Assembly (NCBI GenBank): GCA_000687655.1
Contig: JHWR01000008.1
Location: forward strand, 1-64,000
Source: Lachnospiraceae bacterium YSB2008
GTDB taxonomy: Bacteria; Bacillota; Clostridia; Lachnospirales; Lachnospiraceae
Length of the DNA stretch: 64,000 nucleotides
Direction: 5' to 3'
The notes beneath the pieces were generated by a model. The model was not told the origin of the DNA. It did not search any database and saw nothing but the letters and a program-made list of their open reading frames with translations. The translations under genes were made by a program, and so were the position numbers. Below are positions 6,239 through 58,043 of this stretch, one piece after another. Each line of letters starts with the position of its first letter. Positions within the stretch are counted from its first letter, which is position 1.

Positions 6239-6286
6239 CAAGTGGCGGAAAGTGGCACAAATTGGATTGTACTACCCACAAAGTGG
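6239..6286 (+). promoter_or_regulatory. Probable MraZ operator: 10-bp phased AAAGTGG repeats
   Basis: Seven-base motifs CAAGTGG (6239), AAAGTGG (6249), AAATTGG (6259) and AAAGTGG (6280) recur with 10-bp phasing, the last one base out of phase after a skipped turn. MraZ proteins bind tandem AAAGTG(T/G)-type or TGGG-type repeats upstream of their own gene (established for Mycoplasma and E. coli). The repeats lie at and behind the predicted transcription start and 27-74 bases before mraZ, so autorepression of the cluster is the natural reading. Confidence 0.75.
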
Positions 6287-6312
6287 AGGATTTTCAGAAA
6301 GGAGGAATAGTC

Positions 6313-6756
6313 ATGGCCAAGATAATGATGGGCACTTATTACCACAATATTGATTCCAAGGGCAGACTGATTGTTCCTTCAAAGCTGAGAGATAATCTCG
6401 GAAGCGAATTTGTAGTCACTAAAGGCCAGGATACCAATCTTTACATTTTCTCATATGAAGAGTGGAGCGGATTTGCTGAGAAGCTGAATTCACTTCCTAA
6501 CTCAAAGGAGTACAGAGCTGTTAAAAGATACTTCATGGGAAATGCAAGTTCAGTTGAGATCGATTCTCAGGGAAGAATCGTTATTCCTGCCAAGCTGAGG
6601 GAGGATGCAAAGATTGAGAAAGAAGTAGTTATAGTAGGTGCCGGCAACAAGGCTGAGATCTGGAGCGCTAAGCTTTGGGATGAGGCAGAACAGGAACCGG
6701 AATACACGCAGGAAGCTGTTAACGAACGTATTGATAAGCTTGGAATAAGCCTGTAG
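6313..6756 (+). CDS. mraZ: Transcriptional regulator MraZ
   Basis: AbrB-fold DNA-binding protein that forms ring-shaped oligomers and controls the division and cell-wall cluster. Two SpoVT/AbrB-like halves are visible: residues about 5-50 ([20 protein letters not shown]) and about 75-125 ([20 protein letters not shown]), each with the DSKGR/DSQGR motif. The start is ATG 6313 behind AAAGGAGG (spacing 8), giving 147 residues, the normal length; an upstream in-frame ATG at 6262 lies inside the operator repeats and is rejected. Followed by rsmH after 19 bases. Confidence 0.97.
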
Positions 6757-6775
6757 AGAAAATGGACTGCGTGAT

Positions 6776-7720
6776 ATGAAATTTGAACATGTTTCAGTTT
6801 TACTGAATGAAGTTATAGAGAATCTGAATATCAAGCCTGATGGAATATATGTGGACGGAACACTCGGTGGAGCAGGACACAGCTATGAGATAGCCAAAAG
6901 ACTGGGAAATGGCGGAAGGCTCATAGGTATAGACCAGGACAGAGACGCGATCAATGCAGCTACTGAAAGGCTGGCAGAGTTCGGGGATAAGGTCACAATA
7001 GTCAAGAGTAATTACTCAGAGATGGATATCATCCTGAGGGATCTTGGAATAGATAAGGTTGACGGTATCCTCCTCGACATCGGAGTTTCTTCCTTCCAGT
7101 TCGATAATCCTGAAAGGGGCTTCTCTTACAGAGAGGACGCGCCGCTGGATATGAGAATGGACAGGAATATGGGACTTTCCGCATACGATGTAATCAATCA
7201 GTATGACGAGAAAGATCTGATAAGGATATTCAGGGATTACGGCGAAGAAAGATTCGCAGTTCCTATAGCGAAAGCAATTGTCAAAAAGAGACAGGGCGGA
7301 CCTGTTGAGACGACATTTGAACTGAACGACATTATCAAGGATGCACTTCCGGCGAAAGAGAAAGCTAAGCCGGGACATCCGGCAAAGAAGGTTTACCAGG
7401 CACTCCGAATAGAAGTAAATGGAGAGCTTGATGTTCTGGAGAATTCTATAGATGGGATGATAGATCTCCTGAACGGCGGCGGACGCCTTGCCATCATAAC
7501 ATTCCACAGTCTTGAAGACAGGATAGTAAAGAACCTCTTCAAGAAGAACATGGATCCATGTATATGTCCACCGGAATTTCCGGTATGTACATGTGGAAGA
7601 AAGAGCAAGGGCTTCGTGGTAACCAGAAAACCTATAGTTCCTACAGAACAGGAACTCCTTAGAAATAGACGGGCAAAGAGTTCCAAACTCCGGATATTCG
7701 AAAGGAAGGTATATGACTAA
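6776..7720 (+). CDS. rsmH: 16S rRNA (cytosine-1402-N4)-methyltransferase RsmH
   Basis: S-adenosylmethionine-dependent methyltransferase acting on C1402 of 16S rRNA at the ribosomal P site (formerly MraW). Seen: N-terminal [16 protein letters not shown]-binding [10 protein letters not shown] at about residues 27-36, [15 protein letters not shown] at about 97, and the C-terminal [18 protein letters not shown] Cys-containing stretch ([17 protein letters not shown]) near residue 262 is typical of the family in Firmicutes. 314 residues, full length. It keeps its conserved position between mraZ and ftsL. Confidence 0.97.
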
Positions 7721-7753
7721 AAGGCTTGGGAAGGCTTTAAAGAGGGATAGGTT

Positions 7754-8305
7754 ATGCAGGAAAGAAGAAGACCAAGAAGAGAAATGTACTACGTAGACGG
7801 CAGTACAGTCAGAAAAACTGAATATTCAGCATATCCATCCAGAAGGTATGAGGAGTACCCATCTCGTAGAGAGAAGAGACGTACACTCACACGTGAGGAA
7901 GAGAGAAAGCTTGCCAAGAAGAGAAGAAACAGAGAGGCAAACAAGAAGCACATGACTAAGGTTGCCAAGAAGGCAGCTAAGTCACAGTCATTCGACTTTG
8001 CATATACAGTTCTTCTTCTTGTTGCATTTGGTGTAATGCTCGCTTCGTGCGTTTATATGCTCAGACTCGAAGGGCGAGTTAAGGAGCAGGAGAGCAACAT
8101 AACAAGGCTTTCCAGCGAACTCGACACTATCAAGTCCGATAATATGTCATATTCTGACTCGCTTTCGAATATGTATACTCTTGATGAGATATATAAGATT
8201 GCAACCAAAGAACTTGGAATGGTTTACAGCAGTAAGGGTCAGATCATATATTATGACAGTGCGAATGAGGACTATGTAACACAGTTCGAAGACGTACCGG
8301 ATTAA
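7754..8305 (+). CDS. ftsL: FtsL/DivIC-like cell division protein
   Basis: Single-pass membrane protein of the divisome, expected to act with FtsQ/DivIB and FtsW/PBP at the septum. Seen: a long basic, Arg/Lys-rich cytoplasmic N-terminus (residues about 1-77), one transmembrane segment (AYTVLLLVAFGVMLASCVYML, about 80-100), then a coiled coil (RVKEQESNITRLSSELDTIKSD). Sequence conservation of FtsL is poor, so the call rests on topology and on the position between rsmH and the class B PBP. At 183 residues it is longer than usual FtsL because of its N-terminal extension. AGGATAGGTT precedes the start ATG 7754. Confidence 0.85.
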   Translation: MQERRRPRREMYYVDGSTVRKTEYSAYPSRRYEEYPSRREKRRTLTREEERKLAKKRRNREANKKHMTKVAKKAAKSQSFDFAYTVLLLVAFGVMLASCVYMLRLEGRVKEQESNITRLSSELDTIKSDNMSYSDSLSNMYTLDEIYKIATKELGMVYSSKGQIIYYDSANEDYVTQFEDVPD

Positions 8306-8339
8306 AATAAAATGACCGGAAGAAGTGAGACTTTCGGAT

Positions 8340-10328
8340 ATGAAGAAGAAAAAGAAGAAAATCTTTTTACGTAGAATGAGAGGGCAACTCTCAGTAGTAA
8401 TGGTACTCCTGACATTTGCCCTTCTTTTTTTAGTTGGTAAGATCATATATATAAATGTAACGAACGGTGCAAAGTATAAGCAGAGGGTTCTGAGCCAGAA
8501 GAGGTACAGGAGTATATCTGTTCCGTATAAGCGCGGTGACATACTTGATACGAACGGAACCATTCTTGCAACAAGTAATAAGATTTATAATCTTGTTATA
8601 GAACCAAAGAATATTCTTGAAAGAGAAGCCAATAAGGATGCAACTGTTGAAGCGCTTGAGAAGTATTTCGACATAACTCCTGAGGAGATGAGTGAGTATC
8701 TGAAGGATTCCAATTCACAGTATAAGGTTATAAGAAAGAAACTCAATTATCCTGAAGTCAAGGCTTTCAATGAATACAGGGCAAATGACGCTGATGGCAA
8801 GAAGGTTATAGGCGTGTGGTTTGAAGAGGACTACGTAAGAGTTTACCCTTATAATGAGATGGCATGTCATCTGCTCGGATTTACAGTCAGTGGAAATGAA
8901 GGCCTAAGTGGTATCGAAGGATACTATAATGATGTGCTGAACGGTGAAGAGGGAAGAACCTACAGTTACCTCAATACGGATCTTAATCTTGAGAATAAGA
9001 CAGAAGCGCCTGTAAATGGACTGAGCCTCGTTACATCTCTGGATCTTGAAGTTCAGAAGATAGTTCAGAAAAATGCTGAAGAATATATGAAGCTCATTGA
9101 TACCAAGAATGTTTCAGTTCTTGTCATGAGACCGGATAACTGCGAGATTCTGGCAGTATATAATTCACATCAGTATAATCCGAATGAACCATATAATACT
9201 GACACCATAAGATATCAGTTTAAAAATGAAGAAACCGGAAATCCTATGACGGATGATGAATATGAAGCTGCACTTGCTTCTATGACTGACGCGGATAAGG
9301 TTGAACATCTCGAGGATGTATGGAGAGATTTCGCTGTAAGCGATAACTATGAGCCGGGTTCGACATATAAGACCTTTACTATTTCCGGTGCACTTGAAGA
9401 TAACAAGGTATCACTTGATGATCAGTTCTATTGCCAGGGATATCTGCAGGTAGCTGATGCTACCATAAGATGCCATCACACCTCAGGTCATGGAATGGTA
9501 ACTACAGTTCAGGCTCTTGAAAAGTCCTGTAACCCGGGACTTATGCAGATAGCAAAGAAGGAAGGAAGAGAAACCTTCGATAAGTACCAGAAGCTTTTCG
9601 GTTTCGGACAGAGGACCAATATTGATCTTAACGGTGAACCGGGTGCTGCAACACTAAAGTCTCTTGTATATGATGTTGATTCTCTGAATTCTGTTGAGCT
9701 TGCAACCTCATCATTCGGACAGGGTGTTACGGTTACGATGATGCAGCTTGGTACTGCTTTCTGCTCGGTTATAAACGGCGGTAATTATTATGAACCGCAT
9801 GTTGTAAGACAGATCATAGATTCCGATGGGAATGTAATAGAGAATCATAAGGATGTACTCGTTAGAAAGACAATATCTGAGGAAACCTCAAAGAATATGA
9901 GGGAGATGCTTCAGGGCGTTGTTACCGAGGGTACCGGCGGACTTGCAGCGGTGGATGGTTACTCCATAGGCGGCAAGACAGGAACGGCTGAGAAGATTCC
10001 GAGAGGTAACAGAAAGTATATCCTTTCATTTATAGGATTTGCACCGGTTGAGGATCCTCAGGTTGTAATCTACTGCCTCGTGGATGAACCGGATCCGGAC
10101 AATCCAAAATTCACAAGTACAGGTTGTATACTCTTCCATATGATAGCAGAGGATCTGCTTCCATATATGAATATCTATAAGACGGATTCTGATGATCCTG
10201 AGAGTGAAGGTGAGACAGAAATGCCTGTAGATATCTTCGCTACAGATACGGATGCTACACAGGACGATATCGGAGATACCGGAACGCTGAACGGAAACGG
10301 TGGCGAAACGGATGGAGCAACAAACTAA
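8340..10328 (+). CDS. Class B penicillin-binding protein (FtsI/PBP2-like transpeptidase)
   Basis: Septal peptidoglycan transpeptidase. Seen: Lys-rich N-terminus and transmembrane anchor (about residues 15-38), pedestal domain with RGDILDTNGTILATS, and a transpeptidase domain with the active-site S341-T-Y-K, the S396-C-N motif and K546-T-G. No PASTA domains, unlike SpoVD or many Firmicute division PBPs. The C-terminus is a Thr/Asp/Gly-rich tail (FATDTDATQDD) resembling linkers in other envelope proteins of this window. The start is uncertain: ATG 8340 lacks a clear ribosome site, and GTG 8325 is in frame 15 bases upstream. Sits between ftsL and murD, where mraY would often be found. Confidence 0.93.
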   Translation: MKKKKKKIFLRRMRGQLSVVMVLLTFALLFLVGKIIYINVTNGAKYKQRVLSQKRYRSISVPYKRGDILDTNGTILATSNKIYNLVIEPKNILEREANKDATVEALEKYFDITPEEMSEYLKDSNSQYKVIRKKLNYPEVKAFNEYRANDADGKKVIGVWFEEDYVRVYPYNEMACHLLGFTVSGNEGLSGIEGYYNDVLNGEEGRTYSYLNTDLNLENKTEAPVNGLSLVTSLDLEVQKIVQKNAEEYMKLIDTKNVSVLVMRPDNCEILAVYNSHQYNPNEPYNTDTIRYQFKNEETGNPMTDDEYEAALASMTDADKVEHLEDVWRDFAVSDNYEPGSTYKTFTISGALEDNKVSLDDQFYCQGYLQVADATIRCHHTSGHGMVTTVQALEKSCNPGLMQIAKKEGRETFDKYQKLFGFGQRTNIDLNGEPGAATLKSLVYDVDSLNSVELATSSFGQGVTVTMMQLGTAFCSVINGGNYYEPHVVRQIIDSDGNVIENHKDVLVRKTISEETSKNMREMLQGVVTEGTGGLAAVDGYSIGGKTGTAEKIPRGNRKYILSFIGFAPVEDPQVVIYCLVDEPDPDNPKFTSTGCILFHMIAEDLLPYMNIYKTDSDDPESEGETEMPVDIFATDTDATQDDIGDTGTLNGNGGETDGATN

Positions 10329-10345
10329 TATATAAGGAGAACCAC

Positions 10346-11698
10346 ATGTTTAAGAAAGTATGTGTGGCAGGTGCGGGAAAAAGCGGTAAAGCAGCAGCTG
10401 AGCTTCTTCTCCGTAACGGCATGGAAGTAACTATATTTGATCAGAATGAATCGCTTGATACGGAAAATGTAAAGAGTGATATCAAGGGCGGAGAGAGTGT
10501 CAGCTTTGTTCTCGGAGACTTAAGTGAGGAATTCCTCGGAGGGATAGACCTCTTTGTAATAAGTCCCGGCATCCCTGTTGATGCTGACTTCGTAAAAACG
10601 GTTGATAAGCTTAATATCCCGATATGGGGTGAGATAGAACTTGGCTATTTCTTCGCAAGAGGAACCATAGCCGCTATCACAGGCACGAATGGAAAGACAA
10701 CAACTACAACGCTTGTGGGGGAGATATTTAAAGCGTACAAAGATGACAGTATCGTAGTTGGAAATATCGGTATTCCATTCACAGAATACGCTGACAGATG
10801 TCCGGAAGGGACTCTTGTGGCTGCAGAGATCAGCAGCTTCCAGCTGGAGACTATCCATACCTTCAGACCTCACGTGTCAGCTATTCTGAACCTGACCCCC
10901 GATCATCTTAACAGACACTATACATTTGATAATTACGCGCGTATCAAATTTGATATTGCCCGTAATCAGACAGAGGATGACTTCGTTATTCTGAATCATG
11001 ATGACAGTGAAGTTGTTGCAAGAAGAGATCTTGTCAAGAATGCTAAGGTGGTATATTTCAGCCGACTTACAGAACTTGATGAGGGTGTCTTTGTCAAGAA
11101 TGGAAATGTAGTGGTCCGTGAAGACGGAAAGGAAACAGAAATTCTTCCTCTCAGCGAGGTTAAGATACTGGGAAGCCATAATGTAGAGAATGTACTTGCC
11201 GCAGCAGCTGTATGCTACTATATGGGAATCCCTGTTGATATCATAAGAGAAGTAACAGTTAATTTCCTCGGTGTTGAACACAGGATAGAATATGTAAGAA
11301 CACTGAACGGAGTTAAGTATTATAACGATTCAAAGGGAACTAATCCTGATGCGGCTATAAAGGGCATAGGAGCTATGCCGGGACCGACCTTCCTCATAGG
11401 CGGCGGTTATGATAAGAAGTCAGAATATGATGAATGGATCGATGCATTTGACGGTAAGGTCAAGGCTCTTGTACTTATAGGTGAGACTGCTGAGAAGATC
11501 GCAGAGACTGCAAGGGCTCACGGATTCACAGACATCGTATTTAAGGACAGCCTCAAAGAAGCTGTTGAATTTTGTCACGAGAACTCAGTAGATGGTGACA
11601 ATGTCCTGCTTTCTCCTGCATGTGCAAGCTGGGATATGTTCAAGAGCTACGAAGAGAGAGGACGTCTCTTTAAAGAATATGTAAATGAACTGATATAG
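10346..11698 (+). CDS. murD: UDP-N-acetylmuramoylalanine--D-glutamate ligase MurD
   Basis: Cytoplasmic Mur ligase adding D-Glu to UDP-MurNAc-L-Ala with ATP hydrolysis. Seen: N-terminal Rossmann segment (VCVAGAGKSGKAAAELL), ATP-binding GTNGKTTTT near residue 113, NLTPDHLNRH near 188, and the C-terminal domain with YYNDSKGTNPDAAIKG and LLSPACASWDMFKSYEERG. 450 residues, full length. AAGGAG lies about 9 bases before the ATG. Next in line is ftsW, 18 bases on. Confidence 0.97.
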   Translation: MFKKVCVAGAGKSGKAAAELLLRNGMEVTIFDQNESLDTENVKSDIKGGESVSFVLGDLSEEFLGGIDLFVISPGIPVDADFVKTVDKLNIPIWGEIELGYFFARGTIAAITGTNGKTTTTTLVGEIFKAYKDDSIVVGNIGIPFTEYADRCPEGTLVAAEISSFQLETIHTFRPHVSAILNLTPDHLNRHYTFDNYARIKFDIARNQTEDDFVILNHDDSEVVARRDLVKNAKVVYFSRLTELDEGVFVKNGNVVVREDGKETEILPLSEVKILGSHNVENVLAAAAVCYYMGIPVDIIREVTVNFLGVEHRIEYVRTLNGVKYYNDSKGTNPDAAIKGIGAMPGPTFLIGGGYDKKSEYDEWIDAFDGKVKALVLIGETAEKIAETARAHGFTDIVFKDSLKEAVEFCHENSVDGDNVLLSPACASWDMFKSYEERGRLFKEYVNELI

Positions 11699-11716
11699 AT
11701 AGTGGAGATTTGAACT

Positions 11717-12871
11717 TTGGCTGAAAGAGGAACTGAGGTAAAAAAGAATAAGAAGAGTCAGGTGATCCTGGTCAAGGGTACTTATTTTGATTACCCTCTG
11801 TTCTTTCTGGTAATCTTCCTTGTCGGATTCGGCCTTCTTATGGTTTACAGTTCAAGTTTCTATGAGGGAAGGATCAAGTACGGAAACAGTTCATTTTTCT
11901 TTACAAGACAATTGGTATTTGCGGGCGCCGGATTTATAGCCATGATGATAATATCCGTAATCCGTTATCAGTTTCTTCAGAAGCTGGTACATATCGGACT
12001 TATAGTCGGTGCTGCGTTCATGATTCTTCTTAGGGTTAAAGGTATAAGTAAGAACGGTTCGACAAGATGGCTTGAAGTGTTCGGTATCAGATTCCAGCCT
12101 TCGGAATTTGTTAAGATAATTCTCATAATTTATGTTGCATATCTTTTTACTAAGTATTCAGGAATGCTCCGTAAGTTCACGGACGAGCTGAAGATACTGA
12201 TAGTCCCGGGAATATTCGTAGTACTTATTGCTATTGAGAACCTGAGTTCTGCAATCATATGCTTCTCGATTATAGCCGTTATGTGGTTCGTTGCTACACC
12301 TAAGCCGCTGAAGGTTATTATACTCGGCGCGATAGGTATGGCAGGCCTTGTCGGAAGTATATTCCTGGTTGGTTATCGAAGTGACCGTATTGATGCGTGG
12401 CTTCATCCGGAAACGGCTAAGAATGGCTTCCAGGTTATGCAGTCGCTGTATGCAATCGGAAATGGAGGAATCTTCGGAAGAGGACTCGGCGGAAGTATAC
12501 AGAAGATGGGTTCTGTTCCTGAAGCATACAATGATATGATCTTCTCCATAATATGTGAAGAGCTCGGAATAGTCGGAGCGGCTGCGATAATAATCGTATT
12601 CATAATGCTGCTCTGGAGAATCCGTTTCATAGCTGAAAGTGCACCTGACAGATTCGGTTCATTTATCTGCGTAGGTGTTATTGCACATATAGGAGTTCAG
12701 GTCCTTGTAAATATCGGAGTTGTTACAAATACTATACCAAATACAGGTGTTACACTTCCGTTCATCAGTTACGGAGGTACCTCGCTGATGCTGCTTCTTG
12801 CGGAGATGGGAGTCATCTTCTCCATAACAAGACAGATCAGACCATACAGACCGAAAGTGGGCGAACAGTAA
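11717..12871 (+). CDS. ftsW: Peptidoglycan glycosyltransferase FtsW (SEDS family)
   Basis: Polytopic SEDS glycosyltransferase that polymerises lipid II and pairs with the class B PBP encoded upstream. Seen: about ten hydrophobic segments, the motif NGSTRWLEVFGIRFQPSEFVK near residues 115-135, and the C-terminal NTGVTLPFISYGGTSLM. A cytosolic charged N-terminus precedes the first membrane span. The start is TTG 11717, nine bases behind GGAG; no ATG is available close by. It could equally be called SpoVE or RodA by sequence alone, but the division-cluster position argues for FtsW. Confidence 0.94.
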   Translation: MAERGTEVKKNKKSQVILVKGTYFDYPLFFLVIFLVGFGLLMVYSSSFYEGRIKYGNSSFFFTRQLVFAGAGFIAMMIISVIRYQFLQKLVHIGLIVGAAFMILLRVKGISKNGSTRWLEVFGIRFQPSEFVKIILIIYVAYLFTKYSGMLRKFTDELKILIVPGIFVVLIAIENLSSAIICFSIIAVMWFVATPKPLKVIILGAIGMAGLVGSIFLVGYRSDRIDAWLHPETAKNGFQVMQSLYAIGNGGIFGRGLGGSIQKMGSVPEAYNDMIFSIICEELGIVGAAAIIIVFIMLLWRIRFIAESAPDRFGSFICVGVIAHIGVQVLVNIGVVTNTIPNTGVTLPFISYGGTSLMLLLAEMGVIFSITRQIRPYRPKVGEQ

Positions 12872-12874
12872 TAT

Positions 12875-13579
12875 ATGAAAAAATGGATAGTTCTGATCGT
12901 TATCGCGGCCATACTTCTTGGAGCGTTTATATATGTATCGACTTATCATCTCGATGAGATAGAAATAAGCGGATGCGTGTATTCTTCAGAGGATGAGGTC
13001 CGCGCTGCGATAGAGAATGAAGCAAAAATGAATAATTCGCTGTATCTTCTTCTGGCACTCAGAATGCATGATATCGAGAACGTTCCATTTGTATCCGGAA
13101 CAGATATTGAATTTGTCTCGAAGAATCATCTTCTTGTGACAGTTTATGAGAAACAGCTGGCAGGCTGTATTACATACATGGACAGCTATATTTACTTCGA
13201 TAATGAAGGAAATGTACTTGAATCAAGTCATGAACTTAAGGAAGGCGTTCCATGTATAGAAGGTCTTGATATAAGTAAATGGGAAAATGGACAGAAGCTT
13301 CCGATCAAGAACGAGAAGAAGTTTGACAGGATACTGAATATTACCCAGCTTATAGATAAGTACAGCCTTGAGATAGACAAGATTCTCTTTACGCCTGAGG
13401 ATGATATAATCTTTGTTCATAAGGATATCCGTATCGAGATAGGAGACGGTACATATCTTTCAGTACAGATGATGAATCTGGGCAGTATACTTGAAGGGCT
13501 TGAAGGGAAAAAAGGTACATTATATATGAAAGATTTCACAACAAGTACCAGCAGAGCCAGTTTTAAGGAAGAACACTGA
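12875..13579 (+). CDS. ftsQ: FtsQ/DivIB-like cell division protein
   Basis: Single-pass divisome protein with an extracytoplasmic POTRA domain. Seen: transmembrane segment at residues 4-23 (WIVLIVIAAILLGAFIYVST), POTRA-like region starting LDEIEISGCVYSSEDEVRAAIE, then an FtsQ beta domain (VTVYEKQLAGCITYMDSYIYF ... GNVLE). 234 residues, in the normal range for short Firmicute DivIB. It begins 3 bases after ftsW, so the two are cotranscribed. No terminator separates it from ftsZ, but a promoter is present in between. Confidence 0.88.
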   Translation: MKKWIVLIVIAAILLGAFIYVSTYHLDEIEISGCVYSSEDEVRAAIENEAKMNNSLYLLLALRMHDIENVPFVSGTDIEFVSKNHLLVTVYEKQLAGCITYMDSYIYFDNEGNVLESSHELKEGVPCIEGLDISKWENGQKLPIKNEKKFDRILNITQLIDKYSLEIDKILFTPEDDIIFVHKDIRIEIGDGTYLSVQMMNLGSILEGLEGKKGTLYMKDFTTSTSRASFKEEH

Positions 13580-13620
13580 TTAAAAAACACTTAAAATCGC
13601 ATAAAATAAGCAATTTCTAG

Positions 13621-13649
13621 TTGATTTATTTACATAAAACCTTTATGAT
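13621..13649 (+). promoter_or_regulatory. Promoter candidate for ftsZ
   Basis: TTGATT (13621-13626), 17-bp spacer, TATGAT (13644-13649) in a 139-base A+T-rich gap before ftsZ. It would let ftsZ be expressed above the level of the rest of the cluster. Confidence 0.6.
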
Positions 13650-13718
13650 ATATGAGGTTAATTGTATTTTAACGAGAAAGTTATGCAAAGTGAAGAATAA
13701 TATAAGGAGGAAGGAACC

Positions 13719-14948
13719 TTGCTTGAAATAAAATCAAATGATGAAAAGAACCCTGCAAGAATCCTGGTTATAGGTGTAGGTGGAGCAGGAAATAACGCTG
13801 TTAACAGAATGATCGATGAGAATGTTGAAGGTGTAGAGCTTATAGCTATCAATACTGATAAGCAGGCACTCTCGCTCAGCAGAGCAACAACAAAGATTCA
13901 GATCGGTGAGAAGCTGACAAAGGGACTTGGCGCAGGTGCTAAGCCTGAAATCGGTGCAAGTGCTGTTGAAGAAAACAGAGAAGAGATAAATGATATCATT
14001 AAGGATGCCGATATGGTATTCGTAACCTGCGGTATGGGTGGCGGAACCGGTACAGGTGCAGCTCCTATAGTAGCAGAGATAGCAAGGAACCTTGGAATAC
14101 TTACAGTAGGTGTTGTTACGAAGCCTTTCTCATTCGAAGGAAAGCCTCGTATGGCAAATGCTATGAATGGTATAGCTAAGCTTAGTGATAATGTTGATAC
14201 ACTCATAGTTATCCCTAATGACAAGCTCCTTCAGATATGTGACAAGAGAACAAGCATTCCTGATGCACTTAAGAAGGCAGATGAAGTTCTTCAGCAGGGT
14301 GTTCAGGGTGTTACAGATCTTATCAATAAGCCGGGTCTTATCAACCTCGACTTCGCAGATATCCAGACAGTTATGCGCGACAAGGGTATCGCTCATATCG
14401 GTATCGGTAAAGGAAGCGGAGATAACAAAGCAGTTGATGCTATCAAGTCTGCTATGGATTCACCACTTCTTGAGACAACAGTTGATGGCGCAACAGACAT
14501 CATCGTTAACTTCTCAGGTAACATCGGAATCGTTGAAGCATACGATGCTATCACATACCTTACAGAAGTTGCCGGCGAGAATGCAAATATTATCTTCGGT
14601 ACAGTTGATAATGATGTAGTTGGTGAAGATGTAAGCATTACAATCATTGCAACAGGACTTGAGCAGGATGCTAAGTCATCTGTAAGCATCAAGCCTACAG
14701 CAGTACATAATACAGTTGTTGCTCCTACACCTGCAGCTGAGCCTGCAACAGGAGTTAAGGCACCTTCATTTGGCGGAAGCACAAAGAAGGCTACACCGGT
14801 TCCACTCAGCCTCGGCGGAATAAAGGAACCTAAGGTTTCTGTTTCAGAACCTGCTCCGGCACCTGAAGAGAAGCCTCAGCCATCAGTAACACCTTCAAAG
14901 GAACAGAGTAATAATATTCAGATACCTGCATTCCTTCGCAAGGGTTAA
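13719..14948 (+). CDS. ftsZ: Cell division GTPase FtsZ
   Basis: Tubulin-like GTPase that builds the Z ring at midcell. Seen: N-terminal [18 protein letters not shown], the tubulin signature [10 protein letters not shown] near residue 107, the T7 loop region with [11 protein letters not shown], a Pro/Ala/Lys-rich linker from about 325, and the C-terminal conserved peptide [10 protein letters not shown] that docks FtsA/SepF-type partners. 409 residues. The start is TTG 13719 behind AAGGAGGAAGGAACC, an unusual start for such an abundant protein but with a very strong ribosome site. A terminator follows. Confidence 0.97.
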
Positions 14949-25651: not shown

Positions 25652-27649
25652 TTGAGTAGACTGCAAATGCTGTTATCGTGTCAGAACATAGCTCTCTCGT
25701 TTGGAGACAGAGAGGTGCTTACAAAGATTAATTTTAATATTGAGGATAAAGAAAAGGCTGCCATCATAGGTATAAACGGAGCCGGAAAGACAACCCTTCT
25801 TTCAGTCATAATGGGAAGTCTTACACCGGACAGCGGGGCAGTGGTAAAATCCCCTGATATTTCGATAGGATATCTGTCCCAGCATCAGGATATCATGTTT
25901 GATAATACTGTATATGCTGAGATGTTCGAGGCAAAACGATACATTATCGATATAGAAAAGAGACTCCGTGAGCTTGAAGAACTCATGAAGGATAAGACCG
26001 GTGAAGAACTTGAGAAGATCCTTTCGGAATATAACCGCCTTCAGACTAAGTTTGATAATGAGTCAGGTTATGCATATGAGTCTGAGATACAGGGAGTACT
26101 TACCGGTCTTGGTTTTGATAAAGAGGATTATGACAGGCATATAAGCACTCTGTCCGGAGGACAGAAGATGAGGATAGCGCTTGGACGTATTCTTCTTACT
26201 CATCCTGATCTCATCATACTTGATGAGCCAACGAACCATCTGGATATATCATCACTTACCTGGCTGGAAGGCTTCCTTTCAAGCTACAAAGGTGCGGTGC
26301 TCCTGGTCAGCCATGACAGATACTTTATTGATAAGATAGTAGATAAGATCATAGAGATCGATCAGGGCGTTTCGACTGTCTTCAAGGGAAGCTACAGCTA
26401 CTATTCCGAAGAGAAGGCGAAGATGCGAGAGGCTGCATACCGGGCTTACATGAACCAGCAGGCGGTTATAAAGCATGAACAGGAAGTTATTACGAAGCTG
26501 AAGAGCTTCAACCGTGAAAAGAGTATCAAGCGTGCTGAGAGCCGTGAGAAGATGCTCGACAAGATGGAAGTCATTGATAAGCCGACTGAAGTGAATACTG
26601 ATATGAGGCTTTCACTTACTCCGAATGTTCAGTCAGGTGAGGATGTACTTCTGGTTGAACATCTTAAGAAGTCTTTCGGTGATAACACTCTTTATGAAGA
26701 CATAAATATTGACATTAAGAGAGGAGAACATGTTGCCCTTATAGGTGGAAATGGAACGGGCAAGACGACTCTTCTTAAGATTATAGACAGGCTTATTCCA
26801 AAGGATGAAGGAAGCATTAAGCTTGGTTCACGTGTTAAGATCGGTTATTTTGATCAGGAACATAAGAACCTTTCCATGGATAAGACCATATTTGAAGAGC
26901 TTTCCGATGCATTTCCGGATCTGGGAAATACAAAGATCAGAAATATCCTTGCGGCGTTTCTCTTTACAGGAGATGATGTGTTTAAGCGGATAGGAGACCT
27001 CTCGGGTGGTGAACAGGGACGTGTTTCCCTTGCAAAGCTTATGCTGTCGCCGGCAAATTTCCTGATACTTGATGAGCCTACGAATCATCTCGACATACAG
27101 TCGAAGGAGATACTTGAGGAAGCTATAAGAAATTATACAGGCACCCTTCTCTATGTAAGCCATGACAGATATTTTGTGAATCGTACGGCTACAAGGATCA
27201 TAGAACTCAGGAACAGGGTTCTGACTAACTATATCGGCGACTATGATTTCTATGAAGAGCATAGGGATGAATACTATCTTGTGCAGAACGGAGATAATCC
27301 GCTGGCAGCTCCTGATGCGGCACTGACCAGAGCGGGCTTCACCAAGATTACCGACAGGAGCTCAGGAGACACTCTCGAAGATGCGGGAAGTGCTCCTTCC
27401 ATGACATCTTCAAAAGAACAGTATCTGGCACAGAAGGAAGCGCAGGCTGCAGAGCGTAAAAGACAGAATGCTCTCCGTCGGACTGAAGAAGAGATAGAGA
27501 GCCTTGAGGCCAGACTGTCTGAGATAGATGCTGAGATAAGTCTTCCGGAAAACGGAACCAATATAGGGCTTCTTACCCAGCTTACACGAGAACAGGAAGA
27601 ACTGACTGCAAAGCTGGAAGAGCTTTATGAAAAGTGGGGAGAATTTTAA
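25652..27649 (+). CDS. ABC-F family ATPase (YdiF/Uup-like)
   Basis: Soluble protein with two ABC ATPase domains and no membrane part; ABC-F proteins act on ribosomes, in translation or antibiotic protection. Seen: Walker A GINGAGKTTLL near residue 40 and GGNGTGKTTLL near 366, signatures LSGGQKMR and LSGGEQGR, Walker B LIILDEPTNHLD and FLILDEPTNHLD, and a linker between the domains (about 235-320) rich in charged residues. The C-terminus is a coiled coil (EEIESLEARLSEIDAEI). 665 residues from TTG 25652 behind AAAGGAAG; ATG 25667 is an alternative. Ends 2 bases before the MraY-like gene. Confidence 0.94.
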   Translation: MSRLQMLLSCQNIALSFGDREVLTKINFNIEDKEKAAIIGINGAGKTTLLSVIMGSLTPDSGAVVKSPDISIGYLSQHQDIMFDNTVYAEMFEAKRYIIDIEKRLRELEELMKDKTGEELEKILSEYNRLQTKFDNESGYAYESEIQGVLTGLGFDKEDYDRHISTLSGGQKMRIALGRILLTHPDLIILDEPTNHLDISSLTWLEGFLSSYKGAVLLVSHDRYFIDKIVDKIIEIDQGVSTVFKGSYSYYSEEKAKMREAAYRAYMNQQAVIKHEQEVITKLKSFNREKSIKRAESREKMLDKMEVIDKPTEVNTDMRLSLTPNVQSGEDVLLVEHLKKSFGDNTLYEDINIDIKRGEHVALIGGNGTGKTTLLKIIDRLIPKDEGSIKLGSRVKIGYFDQEHKNLSMDKTIFEELSDAFPDLGNTKIRNILAAFLFTGDDVFKRIGDLSGGEQGRVSLAKLMLSPANFLILDEPTNHLDIQSKEILEEAIRNYTGTLLYVSHDRYFVNRTATRIIELRNRVLTNYIGDYDFYEEHRDEYYLVQNGDNPLAAPDAALTRAGFTKITDRSSGDTLEDAGSAPSMTSSKEQYLAQKEAQAAERKRQNALRRTEEEIESLEARLSEIDAEISLPENGTNIGLLTQLTREQEELTAKLEELYEKWGEF

Positions 27650-27651
27650 AC

Positions 27652-29610
27652 ATGTTGTATGAATCATTAATATCAAATATGCCACGAATATGTGTAGACT
27701 TGATAGGAGCTCTCATAGCAGGGGCTCTTACATTTGTAAAATTCAAAAAACCTGCAGGATTCCTGCCTATAGACGGCGGAAAGAAGGTAGAGACACCGGA
27801 CGGTCAGATAGTGGTCATCAATGATAAGTCTGCAGGAAAAGCAACAGGAGTCGGAGTCATATTCATAACGCTGTTCCTTCTTGTATCGCTTCATCTGGTT
27901 CAGCCGTCTATAGAGATGTTTCTTTATCTTGCACTTATGTTTGCAATAATGCTTACAGGTTATCTGGATGATAAATCAAGTACACCTTGGGGAGAGTATA
28001 CTAAGGGAATACTCGATCTGGTTCTTGCTGTTGCATCTGCAGTAGTATTCCTCATATTTAATTCTTCGGATATCGTATTCTTTGGCAATACATTTCATAT
28101 GCCAAAGGTAATATATGGAATTCTTGCAGTTATCCTTATATGGGCATCCATAAATGTAACGAACTGTTCAGACGGTGTCGACGGTCTTTGCGGCAGCGTT
28201 ACTGTTATAGAACTTATAGGATATGCACTTCTTTTCTGGAAGGAGATTAAGCTCTGGAATGATTTCGGAATAATCCTTATCGGAGCGCTGATTGCATATC
28301 TTTATTATAACTGGAACCCGAGCAAGGTCCTCATGGGAGATGCAGGTTCAAGACCTATCGGTTATATTCTGGCAATGATAGCCATGGCTTCAGGTCATCC
28401 TTTCATTTTCCTTATCATGTCACTTGTATTTATATTTGACGGTGGTGTAGGACTTATTAAGGTTGCTGTCATAAGATTCCTGAAGAAGCCTTTCCTTGAG
28501 AAGATACATTTCCCATTCCATGATCACCTGAGAAAAGGTAAGGGATGGGCACCGAAGAAGGTTGCTATATTCTTTGCAGGATGTGAGGTTGTAATGGTAC
28601 TTGTTGCAGCGCTCCTTCTGACTATTTTCAGAGTTCCTGTTCAGAAGTCTGAACCGACAACGGAACCTGTTACAATTGTTGAGACAGCAACTGCATCTGA
28701 TACCGATCCGGCTACAGCAACAGATTCTGAGCCTGAGGAAGCTGAACCTGAGAAGGATGAGAAACTCTGCCATCTGAAGGATGTTACAGACCTGAAAATG
28801 AATGTCTCAGCTAAGAAGCTCTGTCAGGCAGGCATAAAGGTTACTGATGAGCTCCGTGAAGTTATGAAGCCGGGAACAATTTTTGAGATTGAATATGAAT
28901 GCGAGAAGCCTGTATGGCTTGTAAATGTAAACAGTGAAGATAATCCTAATCCTAAGGGTACATGGCTCAGAGCCATAGATCAGAAAACATATGAAACTGT
29001 AGGAACTGTATCTGAGGATAACAAGGTTGTTCAGTATACTTATGAGCAGCTGGCGGCGTTCTGGGGTGACGGCTGGGAAGAAACCATAACCGATTTCCAG
29101 GCAGAGGGAGCTACAGACTGGAAGGTTACCAGTGTTAAAGTAGGTAAGGACACAGGTTACAGACATCTTAAGGATGTAAAAGAGTTTAAGGAATATAAGA
29201 CCTCGTCCGATGCATGGGCACCTGTCGGCGCAGATGTTTCAGATGATATGAGAAAACTCCTGAAGCCGGGAACCGTCATTGAGATAGAATATAAGGCTGA
29301 CGAACCTGTATGGCTTATCGACATAAGCGGAGATAAGGAACCTAATCCTCTCGGCGGATGGCTGAGAGCTATTGAGCAGGATACATTTGAAACATCAGGT
29401 GCGCTTAATGAGAATCGTACGGTAGTTCAGTACAGCTACGAGGAACTGACAAAGTTCTGGGGAGAAGGTTGGGAGAAGACTATCGAAACTCTTAAGATTG
29501 AAGGTAAGTCAAGCTGGAAGGTTACAGGTTTCAGGATAGGAACTCCGATACCTATGGCTGTTGATCTTGCTACTGAGACAGACGCGGCATCTGAAACTGA
29601 TGCAGAATAG
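27652..29610 (+). CDS. mraY: MraY-type phospho-MurNAc-pentapeptide transferase with a duplicated C-terminal domain
   Basis: Polyprenyl-phosphate N-acetylhexosamine-1-phosphate transferase family; MraY makes lipid I. Seen in residues 1-335: about ten hydrophobic segments, GYLDDKSS (Asp-Asp motif), NVTNCSDGVDGL (family NLTDGLDGL), VLMGDAGSRPIG (MGDTGSLALG) and FPFHDHLRKGKGWAPKKV in place of PLHHHFE.KGW, so the His triplet reads H-D-H. An Asp/Thr/Glu linker (about 332-373) leads to two homologous 130-residue domains (from 374 and 505). MraY C-termini face outside, so the domains should be extracellular. Start ATG 27652 is preferred over GTG 27634. It is probably the genome's displaced mraY; a specialised paralogue is possible. 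Confidence 0.82.
   Translation: MLYESLISNMPRICVDLIGALIAGALTFVKFKKPAGFLPIDGGKKVETPDGQIVVINDKSAGKATGVGVIFITLFLLVSLHLVQPSIEMFLYLALMFAIMLTGYLDDKSSTPWGEYTKGILDLVLAVASAVVFLIFNSSDIVFFGNTFHMPKVIYGILAVILIWASINVTNCSDGVDGLCGSVTVIELIGYALLFWKEIKLWNDFGIILIGALIAYLYYNWNPSKVLMGDAGSRPIGYILAMIAMASGHPFIFLIMSLVFIFDGGVGLIKVAVIRFLKKPFLEKIHFPFHDHLRKGKGWAPKKVAIFFAGCEVVMVLVAALLLTIFRVPVQKSEPTTEPVTIVETATASDTDPATATDSEPEEAEPEKDEKLCHLKDVTDLKMNVSAKKLCQAGIKVTDELREVMKPGTIFEIEYECEKPVWLVNVNSEDNPNPKGTWLRAIDQKTYETVGTVSEDNKVVQYTYEQLAAFWGDGWEETITDFQAEGATDWKVTSVKVGKDTGYRHLKDVKEFKEYKTSSDAWAPVGADVSDDMRKLLKPGTVIEIEYKADEPVWLIDISGDKEPNPLGGWLRAIEQDTFETSGALNENRTVVQYSYEELTKFWGEGWEKTIETLKIEGKSSWKVTGFRIGTPIPMAVDLATETDAASETDAE
28771..29550 (+). 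repeat. Tandem duplicated 130-residue domain in the MraY C-terminus
   Basis: Copy 1 starts at 28771 with HLKDVTDLK and copy 2 at 29164 with HLKDVKEFK. Both contain MKPGT/LKPGT, EIEY, PVWL, NPKGTWLRAI/NPLGGWLRAI, VVQYTYEQL/VVQYSYEEL, FWGDGW/FWGEGW and WKVTS/WKVTG in the same order. The conserved aromatic residues suggest a beta-sandwich ligand-binding module; I cannot assign a named family. Confidence 0.9.
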
Positions 29611-29633: not shown

Positions 29634-30197
29634 ATGGACAAAAAAGAAATACGAAAAGAAATACTTGAAAAAAGAAAAGCCTTATCTAAAGAAGAGGTTT
29701 ACATAATATCTCAAAAGATATGCGAGAACATCATGGGACTTGATGCATATCAGGAGGCAGAAGATATACTTCTTTACAATGCCATAAGAAATGAAGTGGA
29801 TATGAGACCACTTTCAGAAAGAGCTCTTTCTGACGGAAAGAGAGTTTTCTTTCCGAGAGTAATGGATAAGGAGCATATGAATTTCTATGAGGTCAGGGGA
29901 CTTCTTGCTGTCGGTTCATTTGGCATAGAGGAACCGCCTGCTGATCCTACGCTCATATATTCCGGAGAGGGCAAAAAGACGCTTCTTGTTATGCCGGGTA
30001 TTGTGTTTGATGTAAATAGGAACCGTATTGGATACGGTGGCGGATACTACGACAGATTCCTTGCAGAATTTGAAAATCCCGACATGACGGTTATTGCTGC
30101 ATCTTACGAGCTTCAGGTTATGGAAGATGAGATTCCACATGAGGTTCATGATATACAGCCATCCGCTGTAATAACTGAGTCACGGACAATCCTTTAG
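29634..30197 (+). CDS. 5-formyltetrahydrofolate cyclo-ligase
   Basis: Converts 5-formyl-THF to 5,10-methenyl-THF with ATP, returning stored folate to the one-carbon pool used by purN and metF in this window. Seen: basic N-terminus with KKEIRKEILEKRKALS, VFFPRVMDKEHMNFYEV near residue 69, and the signature NRIGYGGGYYDRFLA near 130. 187 residues, full length. The start ATG 29634 follows an A-rich stretch with AGAGAAAAAG. Adjacent genes are unrelated in function, suggesting simple clustering. Confidence 0.95.
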   Translation: MDKKEIRKEILEKRKALSKEEVYIISQKICENIMGLDAYQEAEDILLYNAIRNEVDMRPLSERALSDGKRVFFPRVMDKEHMNFYEVRGLLAVGSFGIEEPPADPTLIYSGEGKKTLLVMPGIVFDVNRNRIGYGGGYYDRFLAEFENPDMTVIAASYELQVMEDEIPHEVHDIQPSAVITESRTIL

Positions 30198-49662: not shown

Positions 49663-49698
49663 AGCAGAGACAGCTGAAAGGTTATCTCTGCTTGTTTT
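49663..49698 (+). terminator. Probable terminator after the DegV-like gene
   Basis: AGCAGAGA (49663-49670) pairs perfectly with TCTCTGCT (49685-49692) around a 14-base loop, followed by TGTTTT. The loop is long and the T-run short, so strength is uncertain. Confidence 0.55.
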
Positions 49699-49762
49699 GT
49701 ATAAGTGGACACTGTGTTTTCTGTTTTTATTGAGGTCAAAAAAGTTTAGTGGGGGATTCTTT

Positions 49763-52700
49763 ATGTTGAAGAAAATGATGAAAAGGGTGATTGCAGTAAC
49801 TCTGGCTGTTACTTTTGTGCTGATGTTTATGCCTCCGGAAATGTTAGGAGGATTCGGCAGAGTTTTTGCGAAAACCAGGAAGGTTTATCTTACACCCGGT
49901 CAGGATTATAACATATCAAATGCTGATAAGAATACCATCGTCTATATAAATGATGACACTGCCGGACCGGAGGGCAGGAGTACGGTAACACTTCGGGGAA
50001 GCAGCACTTATGTATGGGTGCATATTGAGCTCTCCAGTGAAAAGACGGTTATTGTAAGGTTGGCAGACGGACTGAATATAGCTCCGGGTTCTGACAGTGC
50101 ATATGGCACCGGTGGATACTGGGATACTCTCGGCTGGAGCCGCTCGGGCATATACATAGATGAAACAGAATGCTCCGGTGGTACTGTTGTTCTGATGTCT
50201 GAAAAAGGCGCGACTGTTAATATTGATTCGTACAGGAATCCGTTCCCTGTATATATGCCGGTTCCTGCTATTATGAAAAATGATAATAAAACGACTCTTG
50301 TATTTGAAACAGAGGACATGAATGATCCGGGGACTATCATAGCCAGACCAACAAGCGGAGACGGAACGGTAGCTATAGGAGCTTTCGGACATGGAGTTTT
50401 GGGAGTGGCTTCTTCAAGCTATACAGTAGGAAAGATGATCTTCCATTCCGGAAACATTGAGGCCTACGGTCTTGATGACGGACCGGGTATAGGTGCATAC
50501 GAATACTCACATGTGGATGATATAGATTTCACAGGTGCTCACGTTATAGCAAAGGCCGGAAATGCACGTGATACACGTACTGTGATGGGCTCTGCCGGAA
50601 TAGGTACGTCTTACAGAGGTAATGTAGGAAGTATAACAATATCGGCCGGTTATGTAGAAGCATGGGGACAGGGCTCTATGAATGATCCGCTTGGATGGTC
50701 GCTTGTACGATTGCTGGATACCTGCGGAGTTGGTATAGGTGGCGGATGGTTTCAGAGCAATGTGGGCGAGATAAAGATAACAGGCGGTACAGTCCGTGCT
50801 CATGGCGGATCGTGTTACGAAGGTGATTCTGAATCACCCTCCATATCAGGCTGTGGTATAGGTACAACAGTCAGTATATACGGAAAAGGCACAGGAGGTA
50901 CTGCTGATAAGATAACGATAACCGGAGGGGATATAGAGGCTTATGGAGGACACCGCACGGCCGGAATTGGGGGATGCGTAAAGGAGATAGAGATTGCTCC
51001 GGCTAAGCCCGATACAAATCTAAAAATAGTTGCCGCAATTGATGAAAAGAAAGCAAGAAACGGATCAAAGCATTCACTGGGATCCGGTATAGGTATATGT
51101 GATAATATCGTCAGAAGCGGGTATCCGGGGAAAATTACTATATCCGGAGGTGATATTACAGCTACTGCAGGTCATATAGGTGATGACAGACGTATTGGTG
51201 ACAGAGATCATTTCTATGGTTCGGGAATAGGGCCGAACAATTATGGTAAGGTTGAGTCTATCAGTATAACGGGTGGTAAGATAAATGCTGTTGGTGGTTG
51301 GAACAGCCCCGGCATAGGCGGTCCGAATTTCTGTGAAGACGGATCACGTGGAAATGTTGGAAGTATACATATATCAGGCGGAACTGTTACTGCAACGAAG
51401 GCAACCTTTAATGGACGTGACGGAGACGGAGTCCCTGTCAGCGGTATAGGTGGATATGAGACCGGTGATTCTGACAGGACGGATATCAGAATAACCGGAG
51501 GAAGTGTTATATCTGAAGGTTCGGATTATGCCATAGGATATGATGCTGACGGTCAGCCTGAGAATTCTGCCGGTGACATATTATATGGAACTATCTTCAA
51601 ATTCAAACCGGATTTCGGAGAATGGGAAAAACTCGATACATTTACTTTTGATCCGGCTCTCAGCTATGATTACGGACTTAAAGATGTATATTCCAAGAAA
51701 GGCCTTGGTGGAGAGGCTGATAATAATATAGTAGAATTCTGGCTCCCGAAGAGTGGTTCGAATGGCTATAAATGCCTGACTGAATCAAAAGATCATACAT
51801 ATATGTCGGTTAATCCGGAAAAAGTTGAAGCCGGAGATACAACAACCCTCTTTGCCTGCACGGAGATAACATATGTAAATAAGGTGTCCGGCAAAAAATA
51901 CAATGGATTCGGTATATTTGGGGAACAGACACTGAGTATAGATCCGGCTCCAACAGCTACACATAGGTATAAATTTGACAGTTATGTAGACGAGAACGGC
52001 ACAAAGGTGGCCTATGGGTCGGTCGGTGATACAGAACTCACACTTAACCCGGATACGGAATATGTGGATGATTTCAAATGGAATGCTAAACACGGTAAGC
52101 TGAATCTTTATCTGAACCTTGAACGGACACATTACGTGGTTAAGTATGATCCTAATAAGCCTGAAAACGCCAGCAATGATGTTGAAGGAACTATGGAAGA
52201 CAGCACCATTCCTGTTGAGGGAGTAAATCATGTAAGACAGAATGAATACTCTCTGAAAGGCTGGGAGTTTAAGGGCTGGTATCTGAACCCTGAGGGAACC
52301 GGACAAAAAATAGCAGATCAGGGAGAAATCATTTATGATGACTGGGATACAGTTACCTTATATGCACATTGGGAGCCGAGAACGTATACGGTTACGTTTA
52401 CTCATGCTGCATCTGAGGGAACCGGTGATCCATATACTCAGGACTTTGTATATGATCAGCCTCAGGCACTGCTGCCGAATACATTTACTTATGATGGACA
52501 TGAGTTCATTGGTTGGGAAGTAATCGGTCAGCTCGGAAGCTATTATATTAATGAGGCAGTAGTAAACGATCTCTGTTATGTACAGGATGATGGAAGTGTT
52601 GTAGGTAAGACTCTGGAAGCTGAATGGATTGAAGTGGATCAGCTTAATCTTATAATTATAAATAATGATCACTTCGTTACAGATGCGGAACCTACAAATA

Positions 52701-56185: not shown

Positions 56186-58043
56186 GTTTGCGCGCCATGG
56201 GCGCGCTCTAATGGGTGAAAGTCCCGAACACGCCCAGATAGTGGGAAGTGTATAGCTGAACAGCAAGGGTGTCCATCGTGAGGTGGAATCTGAAGGAAGC
56301 TGTAAGCAAATCTCCGGTCCGACGGACAGAAATCACATATAAGGCTAGGCTACGAGAGATAAGTTGGCTATAAGCAACGAAGTCTAATAACTATCACATT
56401 TGTAGTAGCAGAGTAGATGTGGCGGATATATGGAGAGAAAGAGCGTGCACCTTAAGCGTGGAGGTCTCACAGAGGTTCCATTAGCCTAGTAACAACGAAC
56501 TGTGAGAAGTCAGCCGAGCCCATAGTAGTGAAGAAATCTCTGTAATGGAGATGGAGCGAAGGGGTGAACAATCAATAAGTTTGAGTATGTCTCGTGTTGC
56601 AGAAATGACAACATCTGCCGTAACCAATCGGGTAAAAGGTGGTCAAATCAAGCGAGACGGAAAGGAAAGAACGCATGGACACAAGTAGTCTAATGGAGCA
56701 GATACTATCTAGTGATAATCTCAATAGAGCATATCTGCAAGTCGTACGAAACAAAGGTGCGGAGGGAGTGGACGGAATGAAGTACACAGAACTCAAAGAA
56801 CATCTTGAAAAGAACGGCGATGTCATCAAGGAACAGTTGAGGACAAGAAAGTATAAACCTCAGCCAGTACGAAGAGTGGAGATACCAAAGCCTGATGGCG
56901 GTGTCAGAAACCTAGGAGTACCAACAGTAACAGACAGATTCATACAACAAGCCATTGCACAGGTTTTAACACCAATCTATGAGGAACAATTTCATGACCA
57001 CAGTTACGGATTCAGACCTAATAGATGTGCACAGCAAGCAATCCTAACAGCGCTTGATATGATGAATGACGGTAATGATTGGATTGTAGATATTGACTTG
57101 GAAAAGTTCTTTGACACAGTGAACCATGACAAACTTATGACTATCATAGGTAGAACTATAAAAGATGGAGATGTTATTTCTATCGTTAGAAAATACCTAG
57201 TCAGTGGAATCATGATTGATGATGAGTACGAGGACTCGATAGTGGGAACACCACAAGGAGGAAACCTCTCGCCATTATTGGCAAACATCATGCTGAATGA
57301 ACTTGATAAAGAAATGGAAAAGCGAGGGCTTAACTTTGTAAGATACGCAGATGATTGTATCATCATGGTTGGTAGTGAAATGTCTGCTAATAGAGTCATG
57401 AGAAATATCTCTCGATTCATTGAGGAGAAACTGGGTCTCAAGGTCAACATGACCAAGAGTAAAGTGGACAAACCACAAGGACTTAAATATCTTGGATTTG
57501 GATTCTACTTTGATTCAAGGGCACATCAGTTTAAGGCAAAACCACATGCAAAATCAGTAGCAAAGTTTAAGAAGAGAATGAAAGAACTCACTAGCCGTAG
57601 TTGGGGCGTTAGCAACAGTTATAAGGTGGGAAAGCTCAATCAGCTCATCAGAGGTTGGATAAACTACTTCAAGATAGGTAGTATGAAAACACTTTGCAAG
57701 GAAATGGACTCAAGAATTCGTTTTAGATTGCGTATGTGTATTTGGAAACATTGGAAAACTCCACAGAATCGTATAAAGAATTTGATGAAGCTTGGAGTTG
57801 ATAAAGACACGGCTTGGATTACAGCCTATACGGGCAAGAGGATAGCCTACGTATGTCAACTAAGAGTAATGAACTTTGCGATAAACAAAGAAAGACTAAC
57901 CCGCTTTGGATTAGTCTCAATGTTAGATTACTACACCGAAAGATGTGTTACTTGTTAAGTTGATTGAACCGCCGTATACGGAACCGTACGTACGGTGGTG
58001 TGAGAGGTCGGGAAAATTTATTTAATTTTCCCTCCTACTCGAT
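56186..58043 (+). mobile_element. Group II intron (class IIC type) with maturase
   Basis: 5' end near 56186 with GTTTGCGCGCC (GUGYG-like), then the domain I sequences GGGTGAAAGTCCCGAACACG. The maturase lies in domain IV. At the 3' end domain V (about 57966-57999, ACCGCCGTATACGGAACCGT, GTACGGTGGT) is followed by TGTGAGAGG and the domain VI hairpin (GGTCGGGAAAATT/AATTTTCCC) with the end at CTCGAT, about 58043. Total about 1858 nt. Position directly behind a rho-independent terminator and a maturase without an endonuclease domain are both hallmarks of class IIC introns. It separates the hydrolase gene from the arg operon, without breaking a gene. All parts look intact. Confidence 0.92.
56675..57958 (+). 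CDS. ltrA: Group II intron reverse transcriptase/maturase (MarathonRT-like)
   Basis: 427 residues from ATG 56675 (AAAGGAAAG upstream); an in-frame ATG at 56639 lies in intron domain sequence. Seen: RT blocks with KPQPVRRVEIPKPDGGVRNL, the catalytic FVRYADDCIIMV (YADD) near residue 223, GTPQGGNLSPLLANIML, the maturase X/thumb domain GWINYFKIGSMKTLCKEM, and no HNH endonuclease. From memory it matches the Eubacterium rectale intron maturase known as MarathonRT almost residue for residue over the first 330 positions, diverging near the C-terminus. It is needed for splicing and retrohoming of the surrounding intron. Confidence 0.96.
   Translation: MDTSSLMEQILSSDNLNRAYLQVVRNKGAEGVDGMKYTELKEHLEKNGDVIKEQLRTRKYKPQPVRRVEIPKPDGGVRNLGVPTVTDRFIQQAIAQVLTPIYEEQFHDHSYGFRPNRCAQQAILTALDMMNDGNDWIVDIDLEKFFDTVNHDKLMTIIGRTIKDGDVISIVRKYLVSGIMIDDEYEDSIVGTPQGGNLSPLLANIMLNELDKEMEKRGLNFVRYADDCIIMVGSEMSANRVMRNISRFIEEKLGLKVNMTKSKVDKPQGLKYLGFGFYFDSRAHQFKAKPHAKSVAKFKKRMKELTSRSWGVSNSYKVGKLNQLIRGWINYFKIGSMKTLCKEMDSRIRFRLRMCIWKHWKTPQNRIKNLMKLGVDKDTAWITAYTGKRIAYVCQLRVMNFAINKERLTRFGLVSMLDYYTERCVTC

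Follow-up and report, generated by a model that had tools for sequence, protein, structure and literature searches.

A Divergent MraY-Type Transferase with Two C-Terminal CBM65-Like Domains in Lachnospiraceae bacterium YSB2008

Introduction

MraY is an essential antibiotic target and is normally regarded as a bare membrane enzyme. The DNA analyzed here, a 64,000-nucleotide stretch of Lachnospiraceae bacterium YSB2008 (contig JHWR01000008.1 of assembly GCA_000687655.1, positions 1 to 64,000 of the forward strand; the whole stretch is called the window), contains a gene for an MraY homologue that continues for 327 residues past its tenth predicted membrane helix and carries two carbohydrate-binding-type domains. 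What would such an appendage do on an enzyme of wall-precursor synthesis? An initial annotation, made from the sequence alone, placed the appendage outside the membrane and proposed that it could tether lipid I synthesis to the wall or divisome. The genome containing the window is denoted G000 and its MraY-CBM65 protein P0001; other G-numbers are genomes and other P-numbers are proteins. The answer preferred here, held tentatively and with rather less than even confidence, is that the sole PF00953 transferase found in this genome bears an outward CBM65 module that would dock lipid I synthesis near an envelope glycan or a partner.

Results and Discussion

Organization of the Fusion Protein

The features of the gene and its product are listed below. 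The reading frame and its three transferase motifs are as initially annotated.

27652..29610, forward strand: complete gene, open from ATG to stop, 652 residues
27652..28626, forward strand: MraY-type transferase domain with ten predicted membrane helices, residues 1-325
27967..27972, forward strand: Asp106-Asp107, from the sequence, which we take to be the active site as in known MraY
28153..28188, forward strand: NVTNCSDGVDGL motif, residues 168-179, from the sequence, with NCSDGVDGL at 171-179
28333..28350, forward strand: MGDAGS motif, residues 228-233, from the sequence
28513..28536, forward strand: PFHDHLRK, residues 288-295, with H-D-H at 290-292 (PIHHHFE in most canonical genus-mates)
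28627..28773, forward strand: acidic, Thr-rich linker, residues 326-374, mostly of low model confidence
28795..29145, forward strand: CBM65-like repeat 1, residues 382-498, 117 residues, with Leu390 for the invariant Trp of the family
29188..29541, forward strand: CBM65-like repeat 2, residues 513-630, 118 residues, with Pro524 for the invariant Gln of the family
29542..29607, forward strand: C-terminal tail ending in TDAE, of low model confidence from residue 636

The C-terminal domains are genuine homologues of each other, and their starts are 131 residues apart. The predicted local distance difference test score of the linker falls below 50 at residues 330-352 and 354-369. In the full-length predicted model the MraY fold and ten membrane helices are present, the active-site motifs lie on one side of the membrane, and the repeats follow helix 10 on the opposite side. 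The loops taken as inner contain 12 Lys/Arg residues and those taken as outer contain 3. The repeats are thus predicted to be outside the membrane, and a cytoplasmic location, which would have told against the proposal of the initial annotation, is unsupported.

An artefact of frame or assembly was considered and rejected. An assembly accident is unlikely because two further proteins are also full-length fusions. P0002 is 99% identical to P0001 without being identical, and its cluster, which may include the protein of the window itself, contains three member sequences from two contigs. P0003, from another species (genome G023), has 772 residues, 46% identity, and three repeats. Recent acquisition of a foreign array was likewise rejected on base composition. 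The G+C content at third codon positions is 0.42-0.43 for the repeats, 0.36 for the MraY part, and 0.35-0.44 for five other genes of the window, so nothing foreign is visible.

Identity of the Transferase Domain

The transferase domain was matched by PF00953 at 102.2 bits, relative to a curated cut-off of 27, and the five solved sequences matched by it are all MraY. The Asp-Asp, DGxDG, and GDxGS motifs of MraY are present at residues 106-107, 174-178, and 229-233. The MraY equivalog model TIGR00445 gave 82.7 bits, which does not reach its cut-off of 192.05, and a WecA model gave a lower score of 47.9. The initial assignment as an MraY homologue is thus upheld by the family match and motifs, but as a divergent MraY, since the equivalog cut-off was missed. 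Scores with TIGR00445 on the same branch are 77.6 (G012), 75.9 (P0003), and 49.1 (G002). P0009 scored 87.2 and a Treponemataceae protein 129.6; the scores of two canonical genus-mates were 297.1 and 253.8.

The His-His-His triplet of MraY is replaced by H-D-H at residues 290-292. This alteration was correctly noted at the outset, but it is not peculiar to P0001. All 41 divergent loci of the genus have HD[HEQ] (25 HDH, 11 HDE, and 5 HDQ), which rules out a quirk of this gene alone; the 14 canonical-type loci have HHH in 10 cases and HLS in 4. Four genomes (G017, G065, G078, and G082; L138, L118, L139, and L143) have a dcw-type MraY that carries HLS for HHH and lacks the usual [FLM]MGDxGS string. 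The divergent MraY P0008 (485 residues) has an N-terminal stretch with two CxxC pairs, as judged by eye, which may be the effect of a start site or a fusion.

Replacement of the dcw Gene

A second, canonical mraY in the same genome would have argued against the proposal of the initial annotation. A PF00953 search of G000 (2.69 Mb, 29 contigs, 100% complete) returned one match, the gene of the window, and no second mraY. The same genome has six PF08245 (Mur-ligase-type) matches, one of which resembles folate synthase by eye, and one PF04101 (MurG-type) match. PF00953 was found in 56 of the 61 genus genomes, as a single copy except in G067, which has two. No PF00953 match was found in the other five (G001, G011, G019, G020, and G021). 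G019 is 95% complete, yet lacks any match. Of 57 PF00953 matches, 55 were typed by identity to the MraY part of P0001, the gene of the window included and fragmented G073 and G033 set aside, and 41 were divergent and 14 canonical. G067 (78% complete, 5% contamination) has one of each type.

The dcw (division and cell wall) cluster of the window spans 6262-14948 and contains mraZ, rsmH, an ftsL-like gene, a transpeptidase gene of the FtsI/SpoVD type, murD, ftsW, an ftsQ-like gene, and ftsZ. The ftsL-like and ftsQ-like genes are named from their position, and neither the transpeptidase nor ftsW reaches the cut-off of its model. The part relevant to mraY is as follows.

8325..10328, forward strand: dcw transpeptidase (SpoVD/FtsI type), best NCBIfam match TIGR02214 at 449 bits (cut-off 688)
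10329..10345, no strand: empty site of 17 bases, from the transpeptidase gene to murD, where canonical genus-mates have mraY
10346..11698, forward strand: murD, TIGR01087 at 410.8 bits (cut-off 211.95)

The P0001 gene therefore does not occupy the place between ftsI and murD that is usual for MraY. Thirty murD loci, from 58 genomes with a murD match, were compared. In all nine canonical-type genomes mraY is immediately upstream of murD. At the remaining 21 loci, including that of G000, ftsI is there and mraY is absent; among these are G001 and G021, which have no PF00953 match, and G067, which has both types. Canonical dcw mraY and divergent mraY elsewhere substitute for each other across the genus, G067 apart. 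The gap in the dcw cluster, together with a divergent gene elsewhere, indicates that the divergent mraY replaces the dcw gene in much of the genus, and lipid I would be formed by this divergent branch.

Identity and Origin of the Repeats

P0001 was matched by PF18259 (CBM65_1) at 56.6 bits against a curated cut-off of 25, and in the genome search each repeat alone exceeded that cut-off (39.1 and 29.5 bits). A structure comparison of the model identified the predicted fold as that of CBM65. Foldseek, used by itself, placed galectins above CBM65 by E-value, and a second comparison ranked CBM65 first. Structural alignments to CBM65A and CBM65B gave 12-16% identity, and sequence searches of solved structures gave no CBM65 match. 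According to the excerpt of PMC10992016 used here, CBM65A and CBM65B bind xyloglucan and beta-glucan, and an excerpt of PMC4954948 states that binding by CBM65A requires W55, Q106, and Q110. The proposal that the repeats could bind wall glycan gains from the CBM65 identity.

CBM65_1 was found in 15 of the 61 genus genomes, in 13 with a lipoprotein and in 2 with an MraY fusion. The lipoprotein has approximately 640 residues and three repeats, and is split by contig ends in G013. Across the family, a CBM65 match was found in 29 of 397 sampled genomes, G000 and G022 included. The gene block around the lipoprotein was surveyed at 26 loci (6 from the genus and 20 of the 29 family genomes), of which 23 have a lipoprotein open reading frame; at L200, L213, and L217 none was found with the profile used. 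Its recurrent same-strand neighbors are two ABC permeases, a solute-binding protein, NHL, Yip1, DUF5696, and a GH130 phosphorylase, the Pfam names being those of L146 alone. From these names, the block probably takes up a glycan. The conserved block, which also includes DUF624, is seen in L144-L149, L198, L199, L201-L212, and L214-L216. Among the matches listed, source-named records call the lipoprotein "hypothetical".

The DUF5696 marker of the block was found in 14 of the 61 genus genomes, namely the 13 lipoprotein carriers and fragmented G073, in which a contig end falls within the start of a lipoprotein. The marker was absent from G000 at an E-value of 1e-20, and also from G012 and G023. 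A tree was constructed from 95 repeats, 90 of them from 30 lipoproteins selected by the author and 5 from the fusions. The P0003 repeats lie among those of the genus lipoproteins and the P0001 repeats with the P0005/P0006 type, a branch with support of 100/100 separating them; inner placements are based on 118 columns with long branches. Repeat 1 of P0001 is up to 61% identical to lipoprotein repeats. The repeats were likely taken from this glycan-capture lipoprotein.

Eight columns are invariant across the 90 lipoprotein repeats. G15, W45, and W119 are retained in all five fused repeats, and W61, R63, and E114 in four of the five. The W11 and Q13 pair is whole in 90/90 lipoprotein repeats and in 0/5 fused repeats. 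The replacements are L390 and P524 in P0001, where each of the two repeats has lost one residue of the pair, and Ala, Leu, and Asn/Thr in P0003, where each of the three has lost one or both. A Fisher test on the pair gave p 1.7e-8, which is not relied on; the repeats share ancestry and were the author's own choice, and because the five fused repeats are not independent samples no significance is claimed for the loss. The pair may lie within the binding site.

Number of Fusion Events

The genes on either side of the fused gene are as follows.

25652..27649, forward strand: ABC-F ATPase gene immediately upstream, with 2 bases between (NF000355, 478 bits)
29634..30197, forward strand: 5-formyltetrahydrofolate cyclo-ligase gene immediately downstream (TIGR02727, 151.7 bits)

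The same two genes flank the divergent mraY in G000, G012, and G023. In the MraY tree, G000 groups with G012 at 100/96 and G023 groups with that pair at 100/97. No CBM65 match was found in the G012 genome, and its mraY locus has no room for a remnant, the next gene following within a few bases as judged by eye. Beyond P0001/P0002 and P0003, no other MraY-CBM65 fusion was found in the Pfam column of 43, 38, and the best 120 of 189 matches, two of these protein searches having scored roughly the 8000 best candidates. An MraY, sought by its MGDAGS string, was not found among the 23 CBM65 open reading frames of the 26 surveyed loci. Among the 21 loci found by a scan of genome contigs, L002 alone is close, with 57% identity over residues 1-322.

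In both fused species the array is at the same position on the same gene. The P0001 and P0003 linkers are alike beyond shuffling (0.001 of 2000 shuffles); ten lipoprotein linkers used as controls, with 500 shuffles each, gave 0.024-0.978, and the linker ends were picked by eye. Both tails end in TDAE. Repeat 1 of P0001 (window 28801-28839) and repeat 2 of P0003 share NVSAxKLxQAGxK, although the remainder of each repeat has a different descent. The Lys-Leu of this segment replaces a Trp that is invariant in the 90 lipoprotein repeats, and it occurs in none of them. Over columns 1-38 the identity of this segment is 0.54, which does not exceed the background between the two types of lipoprotein (mean 0.50, highest 0.78). 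Two independent fusions are suggested by repeats that fall across a 100/100 branch, and the likeness of the linkers and the shared TDAE argue against them. A single ancestral fusion, followed by exchange of repeats and by loss of the array in G012, is as good an explanation as two fusions. If the two fusions were independent, the pairing of MraY with CBM65 would have been selected twice.

Proposed Function and Alternatives

The proposed arrangement places the predicted C-terminus of the MraY-type enzyme outside the membrane, where it would carry the two CBM65 domains. The array would likely dock lipid I synthesis near a glycan of the envelope or near a partner protein. Its ligand would have changed from that of the lipoprotein, and it may position the enzyme or sense for it. 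A stronger form, control of lipid I synthesis from outside by a re-tuned array that grips or reads the envelope glycan of the cell itself and places or throttles MraY, is considered somewhat unlikely.

Several observations weigh against the docking module. The missed TIGR00445 cut-off is one. The array occurs in 2 of the 41 divergent genus loci (G000 and G023), and in G012, whose protein is the closest at 73% identity and is encoded at the same locus, mraY stops after helix 10 and the array is absent. The erosion of invariant residues, and the branch lengths of the fused repeats (0.51-0.97, compared with a median of 0.082), would also fit loss of use. W55 of CBM65A falls within approximately 3 residues of family position W11, and equally near Q13, by a residue count over aligned ranges, and this placement is suggestive only. 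The rarity of the array and its absence from G012 suit a harmless in-frame run-on into a lipoprotein array, tolerated while its repeats decay, which is quite possible and nearly as likely as the docking module. Such a run-on could be harmless because the C-terminus of MraY opens outside the membrane, and two repeats in P0001, against three in P0003 and three in each of the 30 lipoproteins, would agree with decay, as would the broken W11 and Q13 pair. A decaying passenger is harder to reconcile with a reading frame intact in two species, the retention of G15, W45, and W119 in every fused repeat, a mean model confidence of 90.7, and the presence of an array in both species despite the two different origins of the repeats.

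It is unlikely that MraY merely displays the array as a borrowed anchor for the capture of plant beta-glycan. The ligands reported for CBM65A and CBM65B would suit that role, the lipobox would place the lipoprotein on the same membrane face, and the fused genomes lack the lipoprotein. This use is made less likely because the uptake block was not found, its marker being missing from both fused genomes, and the conserved Trp/Gln pair is broken in each fused repeat. The transferase might also be another polyprenyl-phosphate sugar-phosphate transferase, with the array serving a different surface polymer. Its distance from the equivalog would allow for this, but it is highly improbable. No other PF00953 protein was found in G000, the WecA score is lower, the two mraY types replace each other genus-wide except in G067, and a dcw mraY is absent from all 18 murD loci of the divergent type, G067 not counted. 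An outward array of glycan-binding type on MraY would make the placing or sensing of wall-precursor synthesis from outside testable, and G012, which lacks the array at the same locus, would be a natural control.

Comparison with Known Systems

P0001 differs from described MraY (PF00953, TIGR00445; structures 5jnq, 4j72, and 8g01) in its branch below the cut-off, its H-D-H, its locus outside the dcw cluster, and its two CBM65 domains past helix 10. The CBM65A and CBM65B modules of Eubacterium cellulosolvens Cel5A (4afm, 2ypj, and 4ba6) belong to the same Pfam family and have the same predicted fold, but are borne by an endoglucanase rather than a membrane transferase. The three-CBM65 lipoprotein, from Lachnospiraceae-named and related records, shares the repeat family and probably resides on the outer face of the membrane; P0001 has MraY in place of its lipobox and N-terminal domain, lacks the block marker, and has the Trp/Gln pair broken. 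In agreement with the initial annotation, no MraY with a carbohydrate-binding or extracellular appendage was found described in a literature search that took in few subscription papers.

MviN, also called MurJ, is the flippase for lipid II. In Mycobacterium tuberculosis, according to the excerpt of PMC12599244 used here, MviN is an essential peptidoglycan-synthesis protein with pseudokinase and carbohydrate-binding domains, and its pseudokinase domain recruits an inhibitory partner. It is the nearest known parallel, as far as that excerpt describes it, with a carbohydrate-binding domain common to both; the protein and its domains are otherwise different, and it is no relative of P0001.

Other Features of the Window

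Two further open reading frames were noted in the window. The one at 49697-54487 encodes 1596 residues, and a signal-like stretch lies close to the beginning. The one at 56639-57958 encodes 439 residues and reads like a group II intron reverse transcriptase.
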